From: Pacificibacter marinus
GTDB taxonomy: Bacteria > Pseudomonadota > Alphaproteobacteria > Rhodobacterales > Rhodobacteraceae
Direction of reading: 5' to 3'
Length of the DNA stretch: 64,000 nucleotides
Assembly: GCF_900109555.1 (NCBI RefSeq)
Contig: NZ_FNZV01000001.1
Coordinates: forward strand, 248,001 to 312,000
Of the stretch, positions 33,644-58,211 are shown piece by piece. How positions within the stretch are numbered: the stretch's first letter is position 1; every line of letters begins with the position of its first letter. The translations under genes were made by a program, and so were the position numbers. The notes under the pieces are model-generated. The model was not told the origin of the DNA. It searched no databases and saw only the letters and a list, made by a program, of their open reading frames with translations.

Positions 33644-33710
33644 CAAGTTCGGATGTCAACAGGGACAAACAGGACGGGAGGACACTGTTATATCAACATC
33701 CGCGAGGGAT

Positions 33711-33911
33711 TCATGTGTGAGAGTAAAGGGGTGTCGGCGCAGACAGCCGACGCGCTTGGTGGACGACAATCGTACGAACAATGTCTTCATCCAAAGTAAT
33801 CGGCCCAGGCACCGTGACGGGATACCGAAATGTTTTGCCATCGCGTTCAACGTCAACACGTGCTTGAAATACACCAGCGGTGGCGTCGTACCTGATGTTC
33901 TTGATCTCCAT
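33711..33911 (-). CDS. Small orphan protein under a probable EcfG promoter
   Basis: Product of 66 residues starting MEIKNIRYDATAGVFQARVD, with a beta-rich pattern followed by the basic tail HQARRLSAPTP. I do not recognise a named family. AAAAGG precedes the ATG at 33911. A longer frame to 33950 is excluded because the predicted transcription start lies inside it. A GGAAC-N17-GTT promoter is positioned 33 bases upstream of the start, so general stress control is likely. No signal peptide or membrane segment. Confidence 0.75.
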   Translation of the reverse strand: MEIKNIRYDATAGVFQARVDVERDGKTFRYPVTVPGPITLDEDIVRTIVVHQARRLSAPTPLYSHT

Positions 33912-33943
33912 GTCAGCACCTTTTCCCTTTGTTTCAATAAGGT

Positions 33944-33968
33944 AACTCACGCGGATACAATTGGTTCC
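33944..33968 (-). promoter_or_regulatory. Probable EcfG promoter of the small orphan gene
   Basis: On the minus strand: GGAAC (complement of 33964-33968), 17 bases, then GTT (complement of 33944-33946), followed 33 bases later by the ATG. Same layout as the other promoters of the stress island. Confidence 0.7.
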
Positions 33969-34151
33969 AACATCAATTTCGCTAACCCTAAATTTATTTT
34001 AATGGGTGCCCTAACGTCTTGCTTGTTCACAGCACATCGTTCACGCCATGCACCTTGGAAAATCGGGCGCAATCACCCGTCTGTAAATTATTAAAGACAG
34101 ACGGCTTAGACTGTGTCATCTAAGAACTTAGCTTCATTCAAGGATACGCAA

Positions 34152-34496
34152 ATGACTGCTGCTGACTGCCGATTGATGGTGATGGGGCTCACAGGAATTG
34201 TCCTGCACGACCTTATTGGGGTGATGGAAGAAAGCATTGCAAACTTGCACGTTTCTACCGCCAAAACAGAAGCCGATGCCATAGCCCAACTGGCAGAGGC
34301 ACAAAGCTGGACATATGCTTTTTTGAACCTTGGGCCAAATGCCTTTAAGGAAAGCGCGCTGTCGAAAATTTTGAGTGACCTTGGAGCCAAAGTGATTTTG
34401 CTGGGGAACACCGCCGAAGATGCAGCAGAGACCAGCCCTTATCCTGTTTTGGTCCGCCCCTTCATTGCTGATGACATATTACGCCTTTTGGGGTAA
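34152..34496 (+). CDS. Degenerate receiver-like protein upstream of the stress kinase
   Basis: Product of 114 residues whose pattern resembles a response-regulator receiver fold: alternating strands and helices, LMVMGLTG at strand 1, YAFLNLGPNAF where the phosphorylated Asp would be, AKVILLGNTAED at strand 4 and VLVRPFIADDILRLLG matching the Lys-Pro/last helix. The acidic pocket near the N-terminus and the phospho-acceptor Asp are missing, and the Lys is replaced by Arg. AAGGA precedes the ATG at 34152. It lies 77 bases before the histidine kinase and is likely co-transcribed, suggesting a non-phosphorylated partner or modulator. Confidence 0.65.
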   Translation: MTAADCRLMVMGLTGIVLHDLIGVMEESIANLHVSTAKTEADAIAQLAEAQSWTYAFLNLGPNAFKESALSKILSDLGAKVILLGNTAEDAAETSPYPVLVRPFIADDILRLLG

Positions 34497-34573
34497 AAAT
34501 CTGATCGTTTTTGTGTCCTTGTGGCAATCAAAGGCTATATAAATCAGATGTCAAAATCGAAAGACCTAAGAGA

Positions 34574-36286
34574 ATGAAAAACATCCTGTCTCGTGTGTGG
34601 TCAGGCGTCGACCGTTTGGGCGTGCGTCTTGCTATTGTGCTAGCGGTGGCTTTGCTACCGTTGATGATTATTTCCATCGTGCGTTCACAAAGCGTGGTGA
34701 GCGAAGCCGTCGCCCGCTCGCAGGGGGCCTTGGTTGGTGAAACCCTACGCGCCGTGCAAGAAGAGGTGATCATCATCGAACGCGCCAAAGCGCTGGCACA
34801 AGCACTCAGTCGCTCTGTGCCGATTATGTTGGACGATCCCGAGCTGTGTACACGCTTGATGCACGACAAACTCAATGACACCGCATTTTCATTTGCTGGA
34901 TTTTACGACACCACAAGTTACGTTCCCTGTTCCACTGCGGATGAACCATTTAGCTTTGGTATGACCGTTGATCTGGCAGAGCAACTTGCAGATCCCAAAC
35001 CTATTGTTTTGATCAATGAACAAGCCCCAATATCAGGGGAATCAGTCATCTATGCGTCTCATCCTGTGTTCGACACGGATGGCAGTTTGATGGGCTTTAC
35101 CGCCATTTCTGTGCCACACAAAAGGCTGCGCACGTGGGTGTGGGACGAACCTGACGCCGTCTTTTTGACTCTGAACTCCCAAGGCAAGGTATTGACCTCA
35201 CCGGGATCACTGGAAGACGCCGAACTGATTTTACCACAGCTGGAGCCTGGCCAAGACATCACCAAGCAACCTGTGAGCTTTAGCACCGTGGGTCGCGATG
35301 GGATTGAGCGGCTTTATGCATTGGTTCCCGTGGTGAAAGGCGAGCTTTACGCGCTGTCGTCGTGGCCAATGGACCGCGAGGTGCAAGGCGATTTCTATCT
35401 TAAAAACCCCGCCCTTTTCCCTGCTTTGATGTGGTTGGCCAGCCTTGTCGTTGCTTGGTTTGCGGCCTCGTTGTTTGTCACACGGCATGTGATTAAATTG
35501 AAACGCTCGATGCAAGGGTTTGCAGAAACACGCACGGTAACGACACACAACCAATTTGCGGCCGCTCCAAAAGAGTTGCGCGAAGTGGCCGATGCGTTCA
35601 TCGGTATGACTGACACAATCATGCATGATGAAGCCCAGATTGAAGATACCCTACGCCAAAAAGACGTTTTACTGCGTGAGGTGCATCACCGTGTGAAGAA
35701 CAATCTACAGCTGATCGCATCCATCATGAGTATGCAGATGCGCCAATCGCGATCCAAAGAAGTACGTCAATTGATGCAAAGCCTGCATGATCGCGTCAAC
35801 AGTCTAGCCACGATCCACCGCAATCTGTATCAAACCTCTGGGCAAGCCGACATCAGCATGGATGAACATCTTGATGCCATCGTACATCAAGTGGTCAGAA
35901 TGGCCGCTTCACGCGACAAGTCCATAGATTTGAAAACGGACTTTGCCTCGATACGTTTGAATCCAGATCAGGCCGTGCCTTTGTCTTTGTTCGTGACCGA
36001 AGCCATGACCAATGCTTTGAAATATATTGGTAGTGTGAAAGGCAGTTCGCCCAGTTTGTCCGTCAGCCTTGTCAGCTTGCCAGATGACTATGCACAAGTG
36101 ACCGTGACCAATTCGGTAACCCCGAATGCTGCGGCACCCGATGCAGAAAAATCATCGGGCTTGGGGTCGGAATTGATGGAAGCCTTTTCCGAGCAACTAG
36201 AAGGCGAATTTGAGGTGAACTTGGATAACAATCAATTCACAGTTCATCTGACCTTTCCCGTCGAAGCCTTAACAGCCAAATCATAA
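34574..36286 (+). CDS. Sensor histidine kinase, HisKA_2 type (probable general stress kinase)
   Basis: Inner-membrane sensor of 570 residues: membrane helix at about residues 18-38, a periplasmic sensor of about 240 residues, second membrane helix at about 280-300, a HAMP-like linker, then a HisKA_2 dimerisation domain with LLREVHHRVKNNLQLIASIM (phospho-accepting His) and a divergent HATPase_c domain (FVTEAMTNALKY as N box, SGLGSELMEAF as G box). Kinases of this HWE/HisKA_2 class phosphorylate PhyR in other alphaproteobacteria, and phyR is 2.8 kb away, so the link is strong but inferred. Start at 34574 is chosen because the upstream frame has no good site. Confidence 0.85.
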   Translation: MKNILSRVWSGVDRLGVRLAIVLAVALLPLMIISIVRSQSVVSEAVARSQGALVGETLRAVQEEVIIIERAKALAQALSRSVPIMLDDPELCTRLMHDKLNDTAFSFAGFYDTTSYVPCSTADEPFSFGMTVDLAEQLADPKPIVLINEQAPISGESVIYASHPVFDTDGSLMGFTAISVPHKRLRTWVWDEPDAVFLTLNSQGKVLTSPGSLEDAELILPQLEPGQDITKQPVSFSTVGRDGIERLYALVPVVKGELYALSSWPMDREVQGDFYLKNPALFPALMWLASLVVAWFAASLFVTRHVIKLKRSMQGFAETRTVTTHNQFAAAPKELREVADAFIGMTDTIMHDEAQIEDTLRQKDVLLREVHHRVKNNLQLIASIMSMQMRQSRSKEVRQLMQSLHDRVNSLATIHRNLYQTSGQADISMDEHLDAIVHQVVRMAASRDKSIDLKTDFASIRLNPDQAVPLSLFVTEAMTNALKYIGSVKGSSPSLSVSLVSLPDDYAQVTVTNSVTPNAAAPDAEKSSGLGSELMEAFSEQLEGEFEVNLDNNQFTVHLTFPVEALTAKS

Positions 36287-36323
36287 GCTTTTAGGGCATC
36301 CCCCTAAAGCGTAAACAAAATTA

Positions 36324-36350
36324 AAAGGCCCCGCAGATTGCGAGGCCTTT
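36324..36350. terminator. Terminator between the kinase and the DUF1328 gene
   Basis: Stem AAAGGCC / GGCCTTT (extended by a GC pair around a mismatch) with A/T-rich sequence on both sides, between two convergent genes. Confidence 0.75.
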
Positions 36351-36378
36351 CACTTGATCATAATCGTAACATTTATAC

Positions 36379-36552
36379 TTATAACGGTGGTTTACCGCGC
36401 ACAGCGCGTGCCAACATGGCAACCACAAACAAGATCAAGAAAATCACAAACAGAATTTGTGCGATCCCTGCCGATGCCCCAGCGATGCCGCCAAAGCCCA
36501 GCGCACCTGCAATCAGTGCAACAACCAGAAATGTTAAAGCCCAACCTAGCAT
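36379..36552 (-). CDS. DUF1328 (YtjA-like) small membrane protein
   Basis: 57-residue protein found by direct translation: [20 protein letters not shown], then [12 protein letters not shown], a second hydrophobic helix and the short tail [10 protein letters not shown]. Two membrane helices separated by the GGIAG(A/T)SAGIA loop are the DUF1328 hallmark. GGAGACGAAC precedes the ATG. Such proteins occur in stress-induced gene sets, and a GGAAC-N17-GTT promoter lies 48 bases upstream of the start, so it is a probable EcfG target. Molecular role unknown. Confidence 0.92.
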
Positions 36553-36599
36553 TGTTCGTCTCCTTATTTTGGTGTCGGTATGTGTTGTTCTGCTAAATC

Positions 36600-36624
36600 A
36601 ACTGCTCAGGGCCCATTTGGTTCC
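36600..36624 (-). promoter_or_regulatory. Probable EcfG promoter of the DUF1328 gene
   Basis: Minus strand GGAAC (36620-36624), 17 bases, GTT (36600-36602), with AGTT as the -10 core. The DUF1328 ATG lies 48 bases downstream. Confidence 0.75.
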
Positions 36625-36646
36625 ATCGTTTTTTACCGATTGCGTA

Positions 36647-38242
36647 TTACACCATCTCTTCAGGCATTCCTGGCACGGGTATACTGGCTTGGGCAGCAGG
36701 CTTCCTATCATAGGGCACGATAAACCCCCTGCGCTGCTCGGCAGGCAAATCGGCATTGCGCAACGCGCGATCCAACCAAACATCAAATGCAGCATCAGGC
36801 GCATGATCGGTTTCGCCCCCCAACCAATGATCGAAAATCTTTTTGGTCAGCATTTGAACCTGTTCAGGTGCAGACAACAAAAGCCCCGCTTCTGCGTCCC
36901 ATTTCATGCTGCGGCCATTCAAGTTGGCGGACGACACAATCGCTGCCCTATCATCAAAAATGGACACCTTAGAATGCACATAGACAATCGGCGCATTTTC
37001 CAACGTTGCGCGTTTTGAAGATGTATCGCGCGCGTCAGGTTCACGCGGCTGCACAGGGCTGACCGCCAAGAACCGTGTCCCAAATGTTCGGTGTAACCGA
37101 CGAAACGCGCGCGCTTGCAAATGTTCGCCGAACCGCCCCGCCAACCCTGGCGCATCACTAAACGCTGCAACTTCAGGCGCGGCAGGCAGCAACAATAGCA
37201 GACGTAAATCGGGGTTGTGTTTGCCTGCTTCGACCAAAGCAGACACAATGCGACGATCTCGAAAATACTGCGATTCCAGATAGATAAATCGTTTGGCACG
37301 CTTAATCTGTGCAATATGTTCTTTGAAAATCGTATCGCTGATGGTCTTGGGGGCCAGATGCCACGCGTTGCGGGACCGCTTGCGCGACAAAGTTGTCAAG
37401 AAAGGCGATGAGACCCGTTTTATGGGCTTTTTTCCCGCAATCACATCTGGCAAGTTTTGCAGATGAACCGTGGCGTCGGTCGCAACATCTGGGCTGTGAA
37501 CAACCAATTGCAGGTCATGCCAAGTGTCTTGTGCGGGTTGATTGTGCTCTGCATCGTCAATGCGACGCTCGTTTAAATCAAGCCCGCCAATATACGTTGT
37601 TTTGCCGTCAAAAATTGCCATTTTATGGTGCAACGTCACAGGGTATTGCTGTGGCAACGCTCCGCTGCGCACACAGACCTGCCCGTCTTTAAAGGACAAA
37701 AGATCGCCTAAACCGGGCAAGTATTTAAGGCGCTCTTCCGCCTCGGATCCCTCATTGAAATCACGGGCAATGCTGCGCAGCTCTCGGCGTGTTTTGGCAG
37801 CAAACATAAGGCGCGATACAATGCCCGCTTTGGCAGGGTGAAGCACGCAGCGTACAGTCATCTGTGCTGCATTTGGGGCTGATATTTCATTCAGATCCGT
37901 CAAAATTGCCATGAAAGTCCATGCCTGTTCATGCATATCTGGCGCCATGACAGGATCAAAATCAGACAGAGTTAGATCGATAGGAACGCCCCTGTTGAGC
38001 GTGTGCAAGAAAAGATCCGCCCATGTATCCCCCACACCACGCGCAGCCTCTGAAAGCAATTTTGTGCGCGGATCGAACAGGCGAAACCCCATCACAATGC
38101 TGGTCTGAGCCGACAGAAACAATGATTCCAATCTAGGAAATGCTTCTTGGGCAGTGACCAAGACCTCGATGTCGGCCCCGCCCTTAAGGATGCGATTATC
38201 GCTTTCTAATGAGTTAGTCGCGTCGGACACTTTGACCTGCAT
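36647..38242 (-). CDS. Phospholipase D-like protein
   Basis: Product of 531 residues with two HKD active-site motifs: LHHKMAIFDGKTTYIGGLDL (about residue 210) and YVHSKVSIFDDRAAIVSSANLNGRS (about residue 430), as in bacterial phospholipase D and cardiolipin synthase relatives. No signal peptide or membrane helix is evident, arguing against a classical membrane cardiolipin synthase. The start overlaps the end of ecfG by 29 bases, so it is probably the third gene of the nepR-ecfG operon and under stress control. Role in membrane lipid turnover is inferred. Confidence 0.88.
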   Translation of the reverse strand: MQVKVSDATNSLESDNRILKGGADIEVLVTAQEAFPRLESLFLSAQTSIVMGFRLFDPRTKLLSEAARGVGDTWADLFLHTLNRGVPIDLTLSDFDPVMAPDMHEQAWTFMAILTDLNEISAPNAAQMTVRCVLHPAKAGIVSRLMFAAKTRRELRSIARDFNEGSEAEERLKYLPGLGDLLSFKDGQVCVRSGALPQQYPVTLHHKMAIFDGKTTYIGGLDLNERRIDDAEHNQPAQDTWHDLQLVVHSPDVATDATVHLQNLPDVIAGKKPIKRVSSPFLTTLSRKRSRNAWHLAPKTISDTIFKEHIAQIKRAKRFIYLESQYFRDRRIVSALVEAGKHNPDLRLLLLLPAAPEVAAFSDAPGLAGRFGEHLQARAFRRLHRTFGTRFLAVSPVQPREPDARDTSSKRATLENAPIVYVHSKVSIFDDRAAIVSSANLNGRSMKWDAEAGLLLSAPEQVQMLTKKIFDHWLGGETDHAPDAAFDVWLDRALRNADLPAEQRRGFIVPYDRKPAAQASIPVPGMPEEMV

Positions 38243-38798
38243 TCACAACTGCCATGGTGCCACTGTCCGTCAATTCCAGTGAATCATCTGGCGATAAATC
38301 TAAAAGTTCAACCAAACGCTGACGTGCGCGGTTCACTCGGCTTTTCATCGTGCCTGTCGCAACGCCACACATTTCTGCCGCTTCGTGATAGGCAAAACCT
38401 GAGGCTCCCACCAAGGTCAGCGCTTCGCGTTGATCGGCTGGCAGTTGCACAAATGCTTTTTGAAAATCCGAATAGGCGAGACGCCCGTCATGTTCGGGTT
38501 TCACCGCCAACTTACCACTGAGAATACCGTCTACATCCGCCACTTCACGGCGTCCTTTGGTATAAGTCGTGTAATAAGTGTTGCGCAGAATCGTGAACAG
38601 CCAAGCGCGCATGTTTGTGCCCACTTGGAACTTATCAATCGATTTCCATGCCTTCATGACGGTTTCTTGCACCAAATCATCGGCCAAGGTTGGATTACGG
38701 CACAAGCTCAATGCAAACGCACGCAATACGCCAAGATGTGTGACCAATTCGTCTCGTGGATCAATATCCGCGACGATTTCATTTTCCATTTTGGTCAT
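38214..38798 (-). CDS. ecfG: EcfG-type general stress RNA polymerase sigma factor
   Basis: ECF sigma factor of 194 residues with region 2 (LRAFALSLCRNPTLADDLVQETVMKAWKSID, then AWLFTILRNTYYTTYTKGRRE) and region 4 (FVQLPADQREALTLVGASGFAYHEAAEMCGVATGTMKSRVNRARQRL). The CRNPTLADDLVQ and FAYHEAAEMCGVATGTMKSRV blocks are characteristic of the EcfG (ECF15) group, which recognises GGAAC-type promoters. The start overlaps the nepR end by about 20 bases; a second in-frame ATG at 38789 is possible. Held inactive by NepR until phosphorylated PhyR sequesters the latter. Confidence 0.95.
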   Translation of the reverse strand: MTKMENEIVADIDPRDELVTHLGVLRAFALSLCRNPTLADDLVQETVMKAWKSIDKFQVGTNMRAWLFTILRNTYYTTYTKGRREVADVDGILSGKLAVKPEHDGRLAYSDFQKAFVQLPADQREALTLVGASGFAYHEAAEMCGVATGTMKSRVNRARQRLVELLDLSPDDSLELTDSGTMAVVNAGQSVRRD

Positions 38799-38934
38799 CT
38801 TGCTCCCTCAATTTGCCAATCAGTGACATCAGGTCAGAGGGCAGCTCCTCAGCGGCTTTGTCTTGAAAGGAACGACGCAAGTGATCCTTTATCAAATCAG
38901 TGCGCCGTTTCTCGGGTTGGTTGTCAATATTCAT
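38779..38934 (-). CDS. nepR: Anti-sigma factor NepR
   Basis: 51-residue anti-sigma factor that binds EcfG in unstressed cells and PhyR after phosphorylation. The conserved core IKDHLRRSFQDKAAEELPSDLMSLIGKLREQD, two helices separated by an ExxP loop, matches NepR. The start at 38934 is chosen because a longer frame runs through the nepR-phyR promoter. GGAG lies about 12 bases upstream, somewhat far. First gene of the nepR-ecfG-PLD unit, with overlapping coding regions ensuring coupled synthesis. Confidence 0.93.
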   Translation of the reverse strand: MNIDNQPEKRRTDLIKDHLRRSFQDKAAEELPSDLMSLIGKLREQDDQNGK

Positions 38935-38997
38935 GCCCGTGTCGTCTCCATATCGCTCGATATCCTCGCCAGACGAGGAAATAAATCTAACTCTCAT

Positions 38998-39029
38998 GGA
39001 ACCAAACTGCGAACTGCCAGTTTGGTTCC
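38998..39029. promoter_or_regulatory. Palindromic bidirectional EcfG promoter between nepR and phyR
   Basis: Perfect 12-bp arms GGAACCAAACTG / CAGTTTGGTTCC around an 8-base centre. On the plus strand it gives GGAAC (38998-39002), 17 bases, GTTT (39020-39023) for phyR. On the minus strand it gives GGAAC (39025-39029), 17 bases, GTTT (39004-39007) for nepR-ecfG. The phyR start lies about 28 bases downstream, the nepR start about 70. Confidence 0.85.
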
Positions 39030-39051
39030 AAAGAAAACAAAGGGACTTCCT

Positions 39052-39867
39052 ATGACACAAACTGTTTCGGACCAGCCACTCTCACGCGTTGTCGCAGATC
39101 TTTTGCCATTTTTGCGTCGTTACGCGCGGGCCTTGACTGGATCGCAGCAAACGGGCGACCGGTATGCGGCGACAACACTCGAAGCGCTTTTGACGGATAA
39201 ATCCATTTTTGAGACGTCCTCAAGCCATAAAGTCGCACTTTTCGGTGCATTTCACAAGATTTGGTCCAGCTTAGGCGCACCCATTCAAGACGGCGAAACC
39301 GGACTTGGCGCGCAGGCCCAAGTTCATTTGGCGCGTCTGACCGAAAACACACGCGAAGCACTTTTACTGAACACAATCGAAGAATTCACGCTCGCAGAAG
39401 TTGCAGAAATTATGCAAATCGATGAAAGCGAAGCCACAGATTTGTTGCGCATCGCCGAACAAGAGCTCGAAAAATCCGTGTCTGGCAATATTATGGTGAT
39501 CGAAGACGAAGCCATCATCGCCTTGCACATCAAAAAAATTGTCACCGAACTTGGCCACAACGTTACAGGTGTCGCACGCAAACACAAAGACGCGGTCAAA
39601 CTGGCGGCCAAGCAACGCCCTGATTTGATCCTGTCCGATATTCAATTGGCTGACGGTTCGTCAGGTGTTGAGGCTGTGAACGAAATTCTGGCCGAAGCTG
39701 GCGACATTCCGGTTATTTTCATCACCGCATTCCCAGAACGCTTGCTGACCGGTGACCGCCCTGAGCCTGCATTTTTGATCACAAAACCATACACCGAAGA
39801 TCAAGTGCGTTCCGCAGTCAGTCAGGCGATGTTCTTTGCGTCGTCTGAAATAATCGAAGCGCATTAA
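39052..39867 (+). CDS. phyR: General stress response regulator PhyR
   Basis: Response regulator of 271 residues with an N-terminal sigma-factor-like domain (residues about 10-135, LLPFLRRYARALTGSQQTGDRYA and EFTLAEVAEIMQIDESEATDLL) and a C-terminal receiver (about 145-265) with VIEDEAIIALHI acidic pair, phospho-acceptor Asp in LILSDIQLADG, Thr in VIFITAFPERLL and Lys in FLITKPYTEDQV. The FITAFPE and TKPY spacing is that of the FATGUY receivers. When phosphorylated it binds NepR as a sigma mimic, freeing EcfG. AAAGGGACT precedes the ATG. Confidence 0.97.
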   Translation: MTQTVSDQPLSRVVADLLPFLRRYARALTGSQQTGDRYAATTLEALLTDKSIFETSSSHKVALFGAFHKIWSSLGAPIQDGETGLGAQAQVHLARLTENTREALLLNTIEEFTLAEVAEIMQIDESEATDLLRIAEQELEKSVSGNIMVIEDEAIIALHIKKIVTELGHNVTGVARKHKDAVKLAAKQRPDLILSDIQLADGSSGVEAVNEILAEAGDIPVIFITAFPERLLTGDRPEPAFLITKPYTEDQVRSAVSQAMFFASSEIIEAH

Positions 39868-39877
39868 GCGAAACATC

Positions 39878-39902
39878 GGAACCATTGGCCGTGTCACGAG
39901 TT
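39878..39902 (+). promoter_or_regulatory. Probable EcfG promoter of the DUF883-holin-like pair
   Basis: GGAAC (39878-39882), 17 bases, GTT (39900-39902) with AGTT core; the ATG of the DUF883 gene lies 31 bases downstream, behind AAGGAG. Confidence 0.75.
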
Positions 39903-39933
39903 GATCTATTGAACATACAAAAGGAGTTTTAAA

Positions 39934-40257
39934 ATGGCACAAGCCTCAAAAAACAACGTATCCGAATTGAACACCGACGTGACACAGCAAATGGCGATCT
40001 TGCGTGAAGACATCGCGAATTTGACTGCAACAGTGGCTGAATATGGCAAGGCGCAAGGCGCCGCTTTGAAATCAACTGCGGCTCATAAAGCGGTAGATTT
40101 GGCTGAAACAGGTGCTGCCACAGCTGAGGCGCTTAAAGCGCAAGCTGGGAAAACCTACTCTGGGGCAGAAGACGCAGTACGCGCCAACCCTGCCACAGCC
40201 GTTGGTATCGCAGCGGGCGTTGGTTTCTTGGTCGGCATGCTCACGGCGCGTCGGTAA
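39934..40257 (+). CDS. DUF883 (ElaB/YqjD-like) protein
   Basis: Product of 107 residues: a long amphipathic N-terminal helix region (VTQQMAILREDIANLTATVAEYGK), an Ala/Glu-rich middle and a C-terminal glycine-rich membrane anchor (GIAAGVGFLVGMLTARR) ending with the Arg-Arg typical of ElaB/YqjD proteins. Enterobacterial relatives are C-tail-anchored inner-membrane proteins induced in stationary phase that associate with ribosomes; that role is not shown here. It overlaps the next gene start by one base, and an EcfG promoter precedes it. Confidence 0.88.
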   Translation: MAQASKNNVSELNTDVTQQMAILREDIANLTATVAEYGKAQGAALKSTAAHKAVDLAETGAATAEALKAQAGKTYSGAEDAVRANPATAVGIAAGVGFLVGMLTARR

Positions 40258-40598
40258 TGTTCGGTATTGAGCAAAAAGTAGAAAAGGCTGCGCGTAAAGG
40301 CGCAGCCTTTTCTGCGGCGACTGTGCTGGCACTGGTTGGCATGGCGTTTTTAACCACTGCGGGCTGGATCATTTTGTCAGAGCTTCACTCTGCGCTGTTC
40401 GCGGCAACTGTTATTGGTTTTATTTATGTTGGTGCCGCCGCGATCACTTTGGCCATTGGTCTAAAAAAGCCCCAACACCCACATGCGCAACCAACAGGTC
40501 ACGTGTCTGCGGATTCTGATTTAACGCCGTTACAACTTGTGGTGTTATCATTTTTGCAAGGGTTTGAAAAAGGGCGTCAAAACGATCAGCCCTCATAA
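40257..40598 (+). CDS. Holin-like (Holin-X, DUF1469) membrane protein
   Basis: Product of 113 residues with a short amphipathic N-terminus (KVEKAARKGAAFSAATVLALVG), two membrane helices (about residues 15-40 and 45-70) and a soluble C-terminus ending FLQGFEKGRQ. This is the Holin-X-type family commonly encoded after DUF883 genes; despite the name it is chromosomal and not part of a prophage here. TAATG stop-start overlap with the DUF883 gene indicates coupling and shared EcfG control. Confidence 0.85.
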   Translation: MFGIEQKVEKAARKGAAFSAATVLALVGMAFLTTAGWIILSELHSALFAATVIGFIYVGAAAITLAIGLKKPQHPHAQPTGHVSADSDLTPLQLVVLSFLQGFEKGRQNDQPS

Positions 40599-40675
40599 CA
40601 ATTGTGGCAACGGAGTTGTGTGTGAGCTCGCAGTCCGGCACCCAACCCTGCCACACGAGCCAAATTCTAAACTTG

Positions 40676-41905
40676 TCAGGCCGCTGATGTGACCTTGTCC
40701 CTCAGCGACTTGAGAGTAGTGCGGTTTGCGGGCGTCGCGTGATCTGCCAAGCGGTCCAACACGTCGAGCATAGTCTGACGGGTCAAAGGGTCATCCGCAA
40801 CGTAAGGCCGACAGTCGCCCAGCGAGCGCGCCAGCAAGTGTTCAAAGCTAATCGGTTGCGCCACTATATTTTGTGCTGAAAATATCGTCAGACCATTGTC
40901 ATGCTGCGCAACCAAAGACAGCCCCGCTTCGAACCAGTGCAAACAACTGGTTGCCGTAAAGGGGTCATTCACGCCCGGCGACATGGCCCGTGCGACAATT
41001 TCAACCAGCTGCTCAGCAACAAATATCAAGTTTTGATTTTCGGTCTTAGACCGCCCTAACGCTACGGCTTCGCGCAGACGCGTGTCCATATCCTCATCCA
41101 AAGAATCTGACGTACCCCAAATCCGCAAAATGGCGCGATGCGGGTACATGAATTCCCCAGGCATTTCCAAAATTTCAATGGTCCACTCATTCTCACAGGC
41201 GATCTCGCTGAGCTGATTTTGAGCGATGTTGTGAATATAGCCAGAGGTGCGCAGAAAAACGTCCAAAGATGTGCCAGACTGTGATGCAGTATCAGTCGCG
41301 TCAGGATTAAGATCCTGATCCAAAAGGGTTTCAATGTCTCGCCCAAAGCGCTGTCCCAACCCTGCGATGATGTTCGATACGCTGATCGTTTCAGGGACAT
41401 GGTGGACATGGAAGATCATCACAAAGACGGAAACAAGCGCCAAAATCAGTGAAATATAGATTGAGATATGTGGTACAAAAGCTGTATCTGGGCCTTGCGC
41501 ATTTTGGATGGCGGGCAGAACCAACAGTGCAAACGTAAAGGTCGAAATCAAAATGCCCAGTGTCCACTGGTTGCCGCGATCGCGCATGAAATTGCCAATC
41601 AAACGCGGCCCATATTGCCCCGAGGCAAAGGACACTGCCAGCATCGTGATCGAAAACATGACCCCCGCGACGCCAATCATCGATTGCGCGATCACAGAGA
41701 CAACGGCACGTGCGCCCTCGACACTGATCAGATCATTCATCCAATCAGGTCGAAAGGCGGACATTTTGGGATGGCTATCCACGAACAACGACACAAAGGT
41801 CAAAATGATCGTGAACAGCACCAGTACCGTCGGAATGAACCAGTAACTGGCCCTGACGTCATCAAGATGCTTTTTAATCCGCGCACTGAATGACATAGGG
41901 CTCAA
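40676..41905 (-). CDS. DUF2254 predicted membrane protein
   Basis: Product of 409 residues with four N-terminal membrane segments (about residues 20-45, 65-95, 110-135, 145-170) and a long cytoplasmic C-terminal part containing ILRIWGTSDSLDEDMDTRL and EIVARAMSPGVNDPFTATSCL, the latter being the DUF2254 hallmark. Function unknown. It begins 21 bases after the dps-like gene on the same strand, so it is probably co-transcribed with it from the EcfG promoter upstream of dps. Confidence 0.85.
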   Translation of the reverse strand: MSPMSFSARIKKHLDDVRASYWFIPTVLVLFTIILTFVSLFVDSHPKMSAFRPDWMNDLISVEGARAVVSVIAQSMIGVAGVMFSITMLAVSFASGQYGPRLIGNFMRDRGNQWTLGILISTFTFALLVLPAIQNAQGPDTAFVPHISIYISLILALVSVFVMIFHVHHVPETISVSNIIAGLGQRFGRDIETLLDQDLNPDATDTASQSGTSLDVFLRTSGYIHNIAQNQLSEIACENEWTIEILEMPGEFMYPHRAILRIWGTSDSLDEDMDTRLREAVALGRSKTENQNLIFVAEQLVEIVARAMSPGVNDPFTATSCLHWFEAGLSLVAQHDNGLTIFSAQNIVAQPISFEHLLARSLGDCRPYVADDPLTRQTMLDVLDRLADHATPANRTTLKSLRDKVTSAA

Positions 41906-41926
41906 TCACTTTCATATAGGTGACGC

Positions 41927-42424
41927 TTAGGTGGTCGCCAAAGCGCGCAACATCCACGCTGCTTTTTCGTGAACCGCAGCGCGGGCTGTGGCCAGATCTT
42001 CGGTCACAGGGTCGCCAGCTTTACCTGCTTTTTCGATCACGTCATGCAGGCGTTTGGCAACTTTACTGTGGTCTTCGGCCAGACTGTTGCACAGGGTGAT
42101 GGCATCTGCAACGTCACCAATATCGGTCACGACAGAACCTTTGAGCAGCTCTTTGGGGGACATCGCCGTCAGGTGCCCCAAAGCGCGAATACGCTCGGCA
42201 ATCACATCGGCAGCAGCAAACAATTCGCCGTACTGGCCTTCTGTCAAATTGTGCACAGCGTAGAACATCGGACCTTCGACATTCCAATGAACCGCGTGAG
42301 TTTTGATCGTCAAATTATATGTATCGGCCAAGACCTTAGACAGTTCTTTTGCGACAGCTTTGGCGTCAGTCACGCCTGTCTTAATGTCGACAACTTCGGG
42401 TGTAGGTTTCAATGCTTGTGTCAT
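41927..42424 (-). CDS. dps: Dps-like ferritin/DNA-protection protein
   Basis: Product of 165 residues of the Dps family: cytoplasmic dodecamer that oxidises and stores iron and protects DNA. The ferroxidase-site residues are in KTHAVHWNVEGPMFYAVHNLTEGQYGELFAAADVIAERIRALG (His, Asp and Glu at the expected positions). AAAGGAG precedes the ATG at 42424. A longer frame to 42772 would run across the divergent csbD gene and is rejected. An EcfG promoter lies 40-65 bases upstream. Confidence 0.93.
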   Translation of the reverse strand: MTQALKPTPEVVDIKTGVTDAKAVAKELSKVLADTYNLTIKTHAVHWNVEGPMFYAVHNLTEGQYGELFAAADVIAERIRALGHLTAMSPKELLKGSVVTDIGDVADAITLCNSLAEDHSKVAKRLHDVIEKAGKAGDPVTEDLATARAAVHEKAAWMLRALATT

Positions 42425-42463
42425 GAGACATCTCCTTTGGTGTGAACGACTTATCGGTGGCCC

Positions 42464-42488
42464 AACTGGTAAATGTGGCATTGGTTCC
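42464..42488 (-). promoter_or_regulatory. Probable EcfG promoter of dps-DUF2254
   Basis: Minus strand GGAAC (42484-42488), 17 bases, GTT (42464-42466), AGTT core. The dps ATG is 40 bases downstream. Confidence 0.75.
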
Positions 42489-42501
42489 AAGAATAAATTT
42501 T

Positions 42502-42526
42502 GGAACGGTTTGCTGTCGCTATGGTT
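42502..42526 (+). promoter_or_regulatory. Probable EcfG promoter of the CsbD-like operon
   Basis: GGAAC (42502-42506), 17 bases, GTT (42524-42526). It lies back-to-back with the dps promoter, separated by only 13 bases between the two GGAAC boxes. Here the base before GTT is G, not A. Confidence 0.72.
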
Positions 42527-42568
42527 CTCTACCCAGACGCTGAAAGGCAAAACCGAAAGGAGACCAAC

Positions 42569-42769
42569 ATGAATTGGGATCAAATAAAAGGTGAATGGAA
42601 GACCGTAAAAGGCAAAGCCCGCAGCAAATGGGGTGAGCTGACAGATGACGAGTTGGACCAAGTCGCAGGCGACCGTGAACAACTCGAGGGCTTGATTCAA
42701 AAGCGTTACGGCAAGACCAAAGAAGCCGCGAAAAAAGACGTAGATGCGTGGCTTAAGGAGGTATCTTAA
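42569..42769 (+). CDS. CsbD-like stress protein
   Basis: Product of 66 residues beginning MNWDQIKGEWKTVKGKARSK, with the repeated GKxK and LTDDELDQVAGDREQLEGLIQKRYG segments of the CsbD (YjbJ) family. These are small, charged, abundant stress proteins of unknown activity. AAAGGAG precedes the ATG. First gene of a three-gene unit that ends at the 43849 terminator. Confidence 0.93.
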   Translation: MNWDQIKGEWKTVKGKARSKWGELTDDELDQVAGDREQLEGLIQKRYGKTKEAAKKDVDAWLKEVS

Positions 42770-42770
42770 C

Positions 42771-43313
42771 ATGGCAGACGTTGATCAACTCAACTCAAAT
42801 CCCGAAAGCGCACTGTACGACGCGCTGAACGACACTCGCACTGGTATGCTGGGTCTCAAAGGATCCGAGCAGCACATGCAGCCGATGACGCATTTCGCCG
42901 ATCAAGACGCGGGTAAAATCCGCTTTGTCACCGCGCGTGACACTGATCTTGCACAGGCTTTGACTGTGAATTTGACGGTGAAACAGGCAGCACGATTTAC
43001 TGTTGTTTCAAAGGGGCAAGATTTCCACGCCTGCATTGATGGCACGCTTGAACAAGTTGTGGACCCTCAAACGTTGAAAGACCTTTGGTCACCCGTTTTG
43101 GGCGCATGGTTTGACGGCGGACCAGAAGACCCCGATGTGGTGCTTTTGGAATTCACCCCCACCGAAGCCGCGATGTGGGCCTCAACCGGAAACCCACTAC
43201 GGTTCGGTTATGAGATTGCCAAAGCAAATATGAATGACGACGCAAAGCCAGATCTTGGCAGCCATGTTGTTCATACTTTTGCACCTGCAAAACTGGCCCA
43301 CTCCGCCGCTTAA
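42771..43313 (+). CDS. Pyridoxamine 5'-phosphate oxidase-like general stress protein
   Basis: Product of 180 residues of the split-barrel flavin-binding family (general stress protein 26 type): MQPMTHFADQDAGKIRFVTARDTDLAQAL and FTVVSKGQDFHACIDGTLEQVVD, then LWSPVLGAWFDGGPEDPDVVLLEFTPTEAAMW. Such proteins bind FMN or FAD, but the substrate is unknown. It starts one base after the CsbD-like stop, with a strong AAGGAGG site located inside that gene's last codons. Confidence 0.9.
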   Translation: MADVDQLNSNPESALYDALNDTRTGMLGLKGSEQHMQPMTHFADQDAGKIRFVTARDTDLAQALTVNLTVKQAARFTVVSKGQDFHACIDGTLEQVVDPQTLKDLWSPVLGAWFDGGPEDPDVVLLEFTPTEAAMWASTGNPLRFGYEIAKANMNDDAKPDLGSHVVHTFAPAKLAHSAA

Positions 43314-43381
43314 GGCGACACGTGAAACCTGCACCACTTGGCACAATCGCCGCTGGTGCGCAGATCAATAGGAGACTGAAA

Positions 43382-43816
43382 ATGACAGCGACAATCCTGA
43401 ATGAGACCGATCTTGATGCGGTCAAATCGCTCCTTGATACGACAGTTGATGCGAAAGAGGGCTTCGAAGTGATGGCGAACAAAGCCGAGCCAGAATTTCG
43501 CCCCGTCGCGCGCAAGTTTGAAGCGCTTCACAGTATCCATGCACAGCGCTTGTCCCAAACCCTCAGCATAAATGGTCGTGATCCATCAGGTTCGGGCACT
43601 TTGATGGGATCAGTCAATGAAGCCGCTATTTCGATCCGCGCCCTGTTCGATGAGATCGACGCCGATGTTATGGACAGCGTGCGCCGTGGCGAAAAGAATG
43701 TGTTCAAAGCATTTGATAAAGCGCTTGAGGGCGACATGACAAACTATCGTCATGACCTAGCTGGAATGCGGTTTGAATTGCAAACGCTTGTGAATGAGAC
43801 CGCTCACTTGGACTGA
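43382..43816 (+). CDS. DUF2383/PA2169-type four-helix protein
   Basis: Product of 144 residues, all-helical: AVKSLLDTTVDAKEGFEVMANKAEPEFRP, then a helix with FEALHSIHAQRL, GSVNEAAISIRALFDE and VFKAFDKALEGDMTNYRHDLAGM. This matches the ferritin-like DUF2383 (PA2169) family, whose members are linked to stress genes. Some metal-type residues are present (Glu, His), but metal binding is not shown. Third gene of the csbD operon. Confidence 0.85.
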   Translation: MTATILNETDLDAVKSLLDTTVDAKEGFEVMANKAEPEFRPVARKFEALHSIHAQRLSQTLSINGRDPSGSGTLMGSVNEAAISIRALFDEIDADVMDSVRRGEKNVFKAFDKALEGDMTNYRHDLAGMRFELQTLVNETAHLD

Positions 43817-43848
43817 CGCCTCCACTAGATCATCTTTAAAAAACAACA

Positions 43849-43877
43849 CTTCTGGCCGTTTGAAAAATGGCCGGAAG
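43849..43877 (+). terminator. Terminator of the CsbD-like operon
   Basis: Stem CTTCTGGCC / GGCCGGAAG (one mismatch) followed by CTTTT, 32 bases after the stop of the DUF2383-like gene. Confidence 0.7.
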
Positions 43878-43934
43878 CTTTTGGCATGTCAAAATAAGCA
43901 TCAGAAATAAAACAATAATTTTTGATATTTTCTT

Positions 43935-43959
43935 GGAACCGAATGCCGAAACAACAGTT
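43935..43959 (+). promoter_or_regulatory. Probable EcfG promoter of the PRC-barrel gene
   Basis: GGAAC (43935-43939), 17 bases, GTT (43957-43959), AGTT core. The ATG lies 37 bases downstream. Confidence 0.75.
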
Positions 43960-43996: not shown

Positions 43997-44824
43997 ATGA
44001 AACGCTTTATGACAACGACAGCTATTGCCCTTTTGATCGGTACATCTGCTATGGCTGATGATCATACCGCGCCATTCTCTGATACCCCTTTTAATGTCGC
44101 AGTTGATCTGAATGCCTCAGAAATGATCGGCGCACGTGTTTATGCAACCGAAAACGACACAAGCGCTATGACATCTGTGTCAGTAGATCAAACCACAGAA
44201 TGGGATGACATCGGCGAAATTAACGACATCATCTTGACACGCGACGGCGCGGCGCAATCCGTTATCGTTGGCGTTGGCGGCTTTCTTGGCATGGGTGAAA
44301 AAGACGTCTCGATCAACATGAGCGACTTGCGCTTTATCTCTGACGGTGAAAGCCCCGATGACTACTTTATTGTCATCAATTCTAACGTTGCAGGCGTCAC
44401 CGATGCACCAGCATACGACCGCACCGCAATGGAAGAGCGTGCCGAAGATATGGCCGACGTAGCGCATGACGAGATGAAAGAGGCAGGTCGTGACCTAAGT
44501 CTTATGACACCCCCTCTGATTGAACGTGACGGCTATCAAGCGACCATGGTCGAAGATCTGACAGCCGAAGATTTGACCGGCGCACGGGTCTATGGACCAA
44601 GCGATGAAGACATCGGCGAGATCGATGAAATTCTGCTGACAGATTCAGGCGAACTTGATCGTGCTGTGCTTGACGTTGGTGGCTTCCTTGGCCTAGGCGA
44701 ACGCTCTGTCGCCGTAAGCTTTGAAGAGTTGACCATCATCCGTACAGATGAAGGGGACGATGTGCGCATCTACATCGACAGCTCACAAGAAGCTCTGGAA
44801 GCAAAACCAGCTTACGAAAACTAA
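43997..44824 (+). CDS. Exported tandem PRC-barrel protein
   Basis: Product of 275 residues with a Sec signal peptide (MKRFMTTTAIALLIGTSAMA, cleavage before DDHT) followed by two PRC-barrel domains that are copies of each other: GARVYATEND ... GEINDIILTRDG ... VGGFLGMGEKDVSI and GARVYGPSDEDIGEIDEILL ... VGGFLGLGERSVAV. The region between them is acidic and helical. PRC-barrel proteins of this type are frequent in alphaproteobacterial stress sets and are thought to have structural or binding roles in the envelope. EcfG promoter precedes it, GAGGAG is the ribosome site. Confidence 0.92.
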   Translation: MKRFMTTTAIALLIGTSAMADDHTAPFSDTPFNVAVDLNASEMIGARVYATENDTSAMTSVSVDQTTEWDDIGEINDIILTRDGAAQSVIVGVGGFLGMGEKDVSINMSDLRFISDGESPDDYFIVINSNVAGVTDAPAYDRTAMEERAEDMADVAHDEMKEAGRDLSLMTPPLIERDGYQATMVEDLTAEDLTGARVYGPSDEDIGEIDEILLTDSGELDRAVLDVGGFLGLGERSVAVSFEELTIIRTDEGDDVRIYIDSSQEALEAKPAYEN

Positions 44825-58130: not shown

Positions 58131-58211
58131 AAATAAGGCACACGGGGGGGAACCCTCTGCGCCTTGGTCCTGTTTGCCTTGAGTTATGAGCGTAAACGAA
58201 AGGACCGCGCC

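Follow-up and report, generated by a model that had tools for sequence, protein, structure and literature searches.

A palindrome between nepR-ecfG and phyR of Pacificibacter marinus as a probable bidirectional EcfG promoter

The window, meaning the whole 64,000-nt stretch of Pacificibacter marinus DNA that was analysed, contains a PhyR-NepR-EcfG switch locus: all three genes are present, and nepR-ecfG is divergent from phyR (Table 1). The names given to the three genes in the initial annotation agree with profile matches. For nepR, the Pfam score is barely over its cut-off and there is no NCBIfam match; an in-frame ATG upstream of the predicted start codon, at 38997, would coincide with the predicted transcription start. 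The best PDB sequence match of EcfG is 5uxx_A. Between the two transcription units lies a palindrome whose arms, TGGAACCAAACTG and CAGTTTGGTTCCA, are complementary at 13/13 positions. The initial annotation had described a near-perfect palindrome of 32 bp with GGAAC-N17-GTTT on both strands. The palindrome is in fact slightly longer, and the motif, which is the same as GGAAC-N16-AGTT, does occur on the + strand at 38998-39022 and on the - strand at 39029-39005. Thus, the symmetry of the sequence puts promoter elements on both strands. They are interleaved in the order -35 of phyR, -10 of nepR-ecfG, core, -10 of phyR, -35 of nepR-ecfG. Inverted repeats with perfect 13-bp arms and no more than 20 nt of loop are found at three places in the window, two of which are registers of one other hairpin at 40280. 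In 200 dinucleotide shuffles of the window, the mean number of such inverted repeats was 0.035 and the maximum was 2.

Table 1. Positions of the genes, palindrome and predicted promoters, numbered from the first letter of the window.
Feature	Position	Strand	Details
phyR, anti-anti-sigma response regulator	39052..39867	+	PF22029, PF22233, PF00072; NF006623, 350.4 bits
nepR, anti-sigma factor, 51 aa	38779..38934	-	PF18557, 27.3 bits (cut-off 25.7); predicted start ATG at 38934
ecfG, ECF sigma factor	38214..38798	-	NF009198, 288.6 bits
ecfG codon 80 (Thr)	38559..38561	-	Thr also in L031; Arg in the 160/160 other EcfG rows
HisKA_2 sensor kinase near the switch genes	34511..36286	+	PhyK model 197.9 bits, below the cut-off of 750
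Palindrome, 34 letters	38997..39030	both	13-bp arms and 8-nt core; also found in relatives
Left arm, TGGAACCAAACTG	38997-39009		arm 1 of palindrome
Right arm, CAGTTTGGTTCCA	39018-39030		arm 2 of palindrome
Core of palindrome, 8 nt	39010-39017		not palindromic
Predicted phyR promoter	38998..39022	+	-35 GGAAC 38998-39002, spacer 16, -10 AGTT 39019-39022; predicted start ~39031
Predicted nepR-ecfG promoter	39005..39029	-	-35 GGAAC 39029-39025, spacer 16, -10 AGTT 39008-39005; predicted start ~38996
Single EcfG-type promoter, GGAAC-N16-AGTT	39878..39902	+	before DUF883/ElaB-like gene 39934-40257
Single EcfG-type promoter	42464..42488	-	before ferritin-like gene 41927-42415 (tentatively Dps-type)
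Single EcfG-type promoter	36600..36624	-	before DUF1328 gene 36379-36552
Single EcfG-type promoter	33944..33968	-	before 87-aa ORF 33656-33919
Single EcfG-type promoter	43935..43959	+	before PRC-barrel gene 43997-44824

Each strand of the palindrome carries the features of an EcfG-dependent promoter, namely a -35 GGAAC and a GTT core of the -10, with a spacer of 16-17 (counted before NGTT). The first letter of the -10 departs from the usual form: it is C (CGTT) in most EcfG promoters, but here it is A (AGTT) on both strands. Both predicted transcription starts were placed by the G-11 T-10 T-9 numbering given in part of PMC6411747. The same type of promoter recurs nearby. Within the window, GGAAC followed by GTT occurs nine times at spacer 16, seven of these being AGTT, and 0-4 times at each other spacer from 8 to 30. 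All seven GGAACC sites with spacer 16 are AGTT; two are in the palindrome and five are single sites before stress-type genes. The exception among GGAACC sites is one at 58149, with spacer 17 and TGTT. Genome-wide there are 21 GGAACC-N16-GTT sites, and the seven that fall within 10 kb here are all AGTT (binomial 9e-14, for a 10-kb stretch that was picked after it had been seen). Counting the bare motif is uninformative (GGAACN{15,18}GTT occurs 309 times in the genome and the reversed pattern 970 times), so the analysis relied on geometry, GGAACC and local density. Two side observations concern this neighborhood. First, the 7/21 sites form a compact stress island around phyR (window positions 33944-43959), with promoters before ferritin-like, DUF1328, DUF883, PRC-barrel and switch genes; the 87-aa ORF that follows one of them has no match in a Pfam search. 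Second, at 42464-42526, two -35s stand back to back (GTTCC-N13-GGAAC) between divergent ferritin-like and CsbD genes, and the -10 on the CsbD side is GGTT.

The palindrome is conserved well beyond this species. Of 20 genomes of the genus, counting this one, 14 have a full-length PhyR match, and a strict pair with both arms intact is present in 14/14 of them; the remaining six have weak, partial PhyR matches only. The initial annotation had suggested an alignment with relatives and regarded loss of one arm in close relatives as evidence against its reading. No such loss occurs in the same genus, but it does occur in more distant genera, such as Paracoccus. Among named Rhodobacteraceae PhyR loci, taken as the best 80 of at least 561 confirmed relatives, 52 have the strict pair. 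A divergent ecfG was detected in 75 of these best 80 loci: the strict pair lies between the two genes in 49, another 8 have retained both -35 arms but only a weak -10, and 18 are without the palindrome, 14 of the 18 being Paracoccus. A gene-blind DNA pattern, read on both strands, finds the palindrome in 45/198 family genomes (one per genus), with one site in each; a reversed control pattern has no match in the same 198 genomes. The figure of 45/198 is a lower bound because the pattern requires two letters between GGAAC and AAC, and the denominator may include genomes without phyR. Thirty of the 45 loci were retrieved (own locus included), and in 30/30 the site lies between divergent ecfG and phyR. 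The named and unnamed sets partly overlap (L008 and L037 share a segment), and their counts are kept separate. When the exact arms were used as a query, there was no match in the collection of genome contigs.

Some members of the family differ. The Paracoccus loci keep the nepR-side motif only, and the nepR-side -10 of Salipiger and Alloyangia is of the CATT type. In 12/14 Paracoccus loci, where the phyR-side EcfG motif is lost, the gap contains CTTGTGCGCAC, followed ~6 nt on by mostly CAACC or CTAACC (L050, L060, L067, L083, L084, L087, L091, L101, L102, L105, L106, L107). This arrangement is perhaps a housekeeping-type promoter. In several Rhodobacterales the switch locus is on a plasmid record (L225, L226, L227, L228, L229). 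The palindrome is present in the plasmid loci of Dinoroseobacter shibae (pDSHI02, L225), Gemmobacter aquarius and Pseudorhodobacter turbinis, and the Ketogulonicigenium plasmid locus has a form of it with CATT on the nepR side. In D. shibae DFL 12 it is a strict palindrome, at L225 positions 2455-2487. In Roseobacter litoralis (L226), the EcfG pattern has no match in the nepR-phyR gap.

Other layouts are found upstream of phyR elsewhere in the class. A census covered the 400 bp upstream of 75 PhyR loci outside the family Rhodobacteraceae, using motif matches alone; each locus was assigned to the first layout that fitted, and adjacency of nepR-ecfG was not a criterion. Back-to-back -35s (GTTCC-N6..9-GGAAC) occur in 13 loci of 10 families. 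Four loci, all from family f39, have an interleaved 32-bp form. A 27-bp form, GGAAC-N17-GTTCC, in which each -10 GTT is inside the opposite -35, occurs in 4/4 loci of family f34 (L129, L194-L196). Two separate promoter motifs are present in 10 loci, one in 20 and none in 24, the last group including several loci whose genomes have multiple PhyR copies. Left out of the census are L116, L127, L169 and L209 (short flank or contig edge), a partial match in G426, and five rows of the window's own family (L111, L112, L170, L171, L188). Of the own-family rows, L112 and L171 have the strict palindrome, L170 has both -35 arms and a weak phyR-side -10, and L188, the second PhyR copy of G436, is without the palindrome. 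In a PhyR tree (58 rows, quick method, 24 open forks), f39 and f34 are placed across a supported branch from the main Rhodobacteraceae clade, and L025, a row of the window's family, is also outside that clade. This placement gives a hint that the overlapping layout arose more than once.

Taken together, the consensus, the spacers, the conservation across the family and the -10 letter shared with neighboring promoters support superimposed EcfG-type promoters for both units, as the initial annotation had proposed. The palindrome is very probably one bidirectional EcfG promoter, consisting of two interleaved promoters, that autoregulates phyR and nepR-ecfG. From the sequence evidence we infer that both directions fire and that EcfG is the factor. 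EcfG freed from NepR would load RNA polymerase on either strand, and the loaded polymerase would drive phyR or nepR-ecfG, such that all three parts of the switch would be autoregulated. The expectation that free EcfG induces both units comes from knowledge of the family and from part of a review in which both units are driven by GSR-dependent promoters (PMC8103513).

What would this arrangement mean for the expression of the two units? With predicted starts ~35 bp apart, there would be room for one polymerase at a time, and it is plausible, on geometric grounds, that one RNA polymerase excludes the other. If polymerases do compete, and if this shifts the PhyR:NepR ratio, the effect may be important only when EcfG is highly active. 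The initial annotation went further, stating that the two transcripts would be fixed in ratio. A ratio fixed by symmetry is unsupported, because the first -10 letter on one strand varies independently of that on the other and the two units in R. sphaeroides respond to different stresses. Specifically, among 101 distinct palindromes, chosen by length (31-33) and spacer (16-17), C is the first -10 letter on both strands in 59/101 (expected 57.0; Fisher p = 0.29). In R. sphaeroides, according to part of PMC5830050, the sigma-factor mRNA goes up only in membrane stress, and the phyR mRNA goes up only with singlet oxygen, superoxide and diamide. The palindrome itself was found in a congener, Cereibacter ovatus (L049). 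Mutual exclusion could account for the R. sphaeroides mRNA data, and so could extra inputs.

There is nearly an even chance that the layout is simply frozen, with both promoters working but firing too rarely to compete; the anatomy would be the same and only the consequence would differ. Excerpts from a study of E. coli bidirectional promoters describe no competition at basal activity and its appearance once the promoters were strengthened (PMC12825309). In addition, interleaving means that inserting or deleting letters in the core alters both spacers together, and such a layout, once it exists, tends to become locked in place. Lock-in of this kind can explain persistence without invoking a benefit, meaning that conservation would need no function. 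The independent variation of the -10 letters and the different layouts upstream of phyR in other families point the same way. Against it, induction by a stress sigma factor may be strong, which is the condition under which the E. coli promoters did compete (PMC12825309, in part), and separate promoters can evolve, as in the 10/75 loci outside the family that have two promoter motifs neither adjoining nor interleaved.

Readings that change the anatomy itself fare less well than the bidirectional EcfG promoter. It is improbable that one direction alone is an EcfG promoter, the other half being residual or read by another factor. Some genera do keep one strong side, as described above for Paracoccus, Salipiger and Alloyangia, but here neither side departs from the local consensus, and every same-genus genome with full-length PhyR has the two sides intact. 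A long, perfect dyad inside a divergent gap could also be the operator of a dimeric regulator. This is very unlikely. A dimeric operator is expected to hold its arm distance and promoters are expected to hold their spacer; totals that vary while the spacers stay at 16-17 favor promoters. In the 52 named strict pairs (from the best 80 of at least 561), for which the scan would have accepted any spacer of 15-18 and any total of 26-38 bp, totals are 31, 32 and 33 bp in 4, 34 and 14 loci, such that the half-site distance is not constant. The spacers are 16/16 in 30, 17/17 in 14 and one of each in 8. In the 198-genome pattern, totals are 32 or 33 bp only, though up to 36 was allowed. The 101 palindromes, being preselected, are not evidence for length or spacer, so the 52 loci and the 198-genome pattern were used. 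Position 7 does show a mild excess of symmetry (45/83, 32.9 expected, p = 0.001 with kinship ignored), which would suit an operator, and position 6 has no arm-to-arm covariation. The arm letters, however, are those of the EcfG -35 and -10, with the same -10 letter as the neighboring promoters, and there is one site per genome, at the switch locus in all 30 examined of the 45. Finally, a transcription terminator or RNA hairpin, which the 13-bp stem and 8-nt loop would allow, is extremely improbable, given that the flanking units both head away, neither being transcribed across the palindrome, and that on the + strand the arm is followed by an A-rich, not a T-rich, stretch.

The A at the start of the -10 provides a further link between the bidirectional promoter and EcfG. 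It is found in both arms of the palindrome and in five nearby single promoters. A variety of -10 sequences has been reported for EcfG-type promoters, including C/GGTT and up to 14 putative variants (excerpts of PMC12148442 and PMC7083833). Among relatives, A is the rarest first letter (7 of the 84 single sites found at spacers 16 and 17 across 79 loci). For single sites at spacers 16 and 17 combined, A is found at 5/6 here vs 7/84 in relatives (p = 1e-4), and at spacer 16 the figures are 5/5 vs 4/39 (p = 1e-4), the sites within one species not being independent. EcfG of this species is unusual as well. Residue 80 is Thr here and in Pararhodobacter oceanensis (L031) only, and Arg in 160/160 others, other families of the class included; the alignment has 162 rows, 156 of them distinct, with three copies of the locus in the window, and matches short of approximately residues 20-150, excluded. 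By ungapped alignment and the numbering in part of PMC6411747, residue 80 lies beside those that in sigma-H touch the -11 base pair and position -14. As suggested in part of PMC6372665, the C-G letters that form the upstream edge of the -10 could be read by the C-terminal helix of the same sigma domain. Pararhodobacter oceanensis, the nearest among the relatives listed, has A on the phyR side and G on the nepR side of its palindrome, and A or G at 5/6 of its nearby single sites. The Arg80-to-Thr change may have caused the change of -10 letter, as far as one clade can tell. Residue and letter are not strictly linked: A also occurs at single sites, and on one strand of the palindrome, in some species with Arg80. 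Genome-wide counts of AGTT and CGTT in 41 genomes gave no clear contrast outside the local cluster, so the letter contrast rests on local clusters. The A shared by both arms and their neighbors, together with Thr80, fits one sigma factor reading both arms.

Much of this is already known: EcfG promoters, autoregulation of the switch locus, and bidirectional promoters as a class. Like other EcfG (ECF15) promoters of Alphaproteobacteria, those described here have a GGAAC -35, a 16-17 spacer and a GTT core of the -10, and the divergent nepR-ecfG and phyR are both under GSR promoters in known EcfG systems (PMC8103513 and PMC7083833, both in part). Unlike those promoters, the two here are fully interleaved in one palindrome, with A as first -10 letter. 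The E. coli bidirectional sigma-70 promoters are also pseudo-symmetrical DNA read both ways, with overlapping polymerase sites; they share a -10, and their starts are mostly 18, 10 or 23 bp apart (PMC12825309, in part). Here, in contrast, no -10 is shared. There are separate -10s (39019-39022 and 39005-39008), each flanked by the -35 of the other, the starts are predicted to be ~35 bp apart, and the sigma factor is an alternative one. The interleaved palindromic form thus differs from the E. coli type with its shared -10. The back-to-back motifs of 10 other families are similar in that two divergent EcfG-type promoters are crowded together, but their -35s adjoin and the promoters point apart without interleaving. 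No description of a palindromic or interleaved EcfG promoter was found in the titles and abstract openings of the open-licence PMC literature.

A broader reading joins these observations, and it is put forward tentatively, as possible but somewhat doubtful. The palindrome would be a single-occupancy switch, with one EcfG-polymerase at a time going either to phyR, the activator, or to nepR-ecfG, the inhibitor operon, capping the response and setting the PhyR:NepR balance at high sigma activity. In this clade, the Arg80-to-Thr change in EcfG would have gone hand in hand with the adoption of a new -10 letter by both palindrome -10s and the neighboring promoters, so that a sigma factor driving its own gene was rewired naturally. 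Across Alphaproteobacteria, at least three DNA geometries would have led to two-way control upstream of phyR by promoters that overlap or adjoin.

What are the implications? First, competition between polymerases can be tested here on a compact, conserved promoter that is read by a sigma factor under the control of the promoter's own products; among the E. coli promoters studied so far, competition has been seen only with raised activity (PMC12825309, in part). Second, the joint change of residue 80 and the -10 letter makes the reading of the -10 by ECF sigma factors directly testable.
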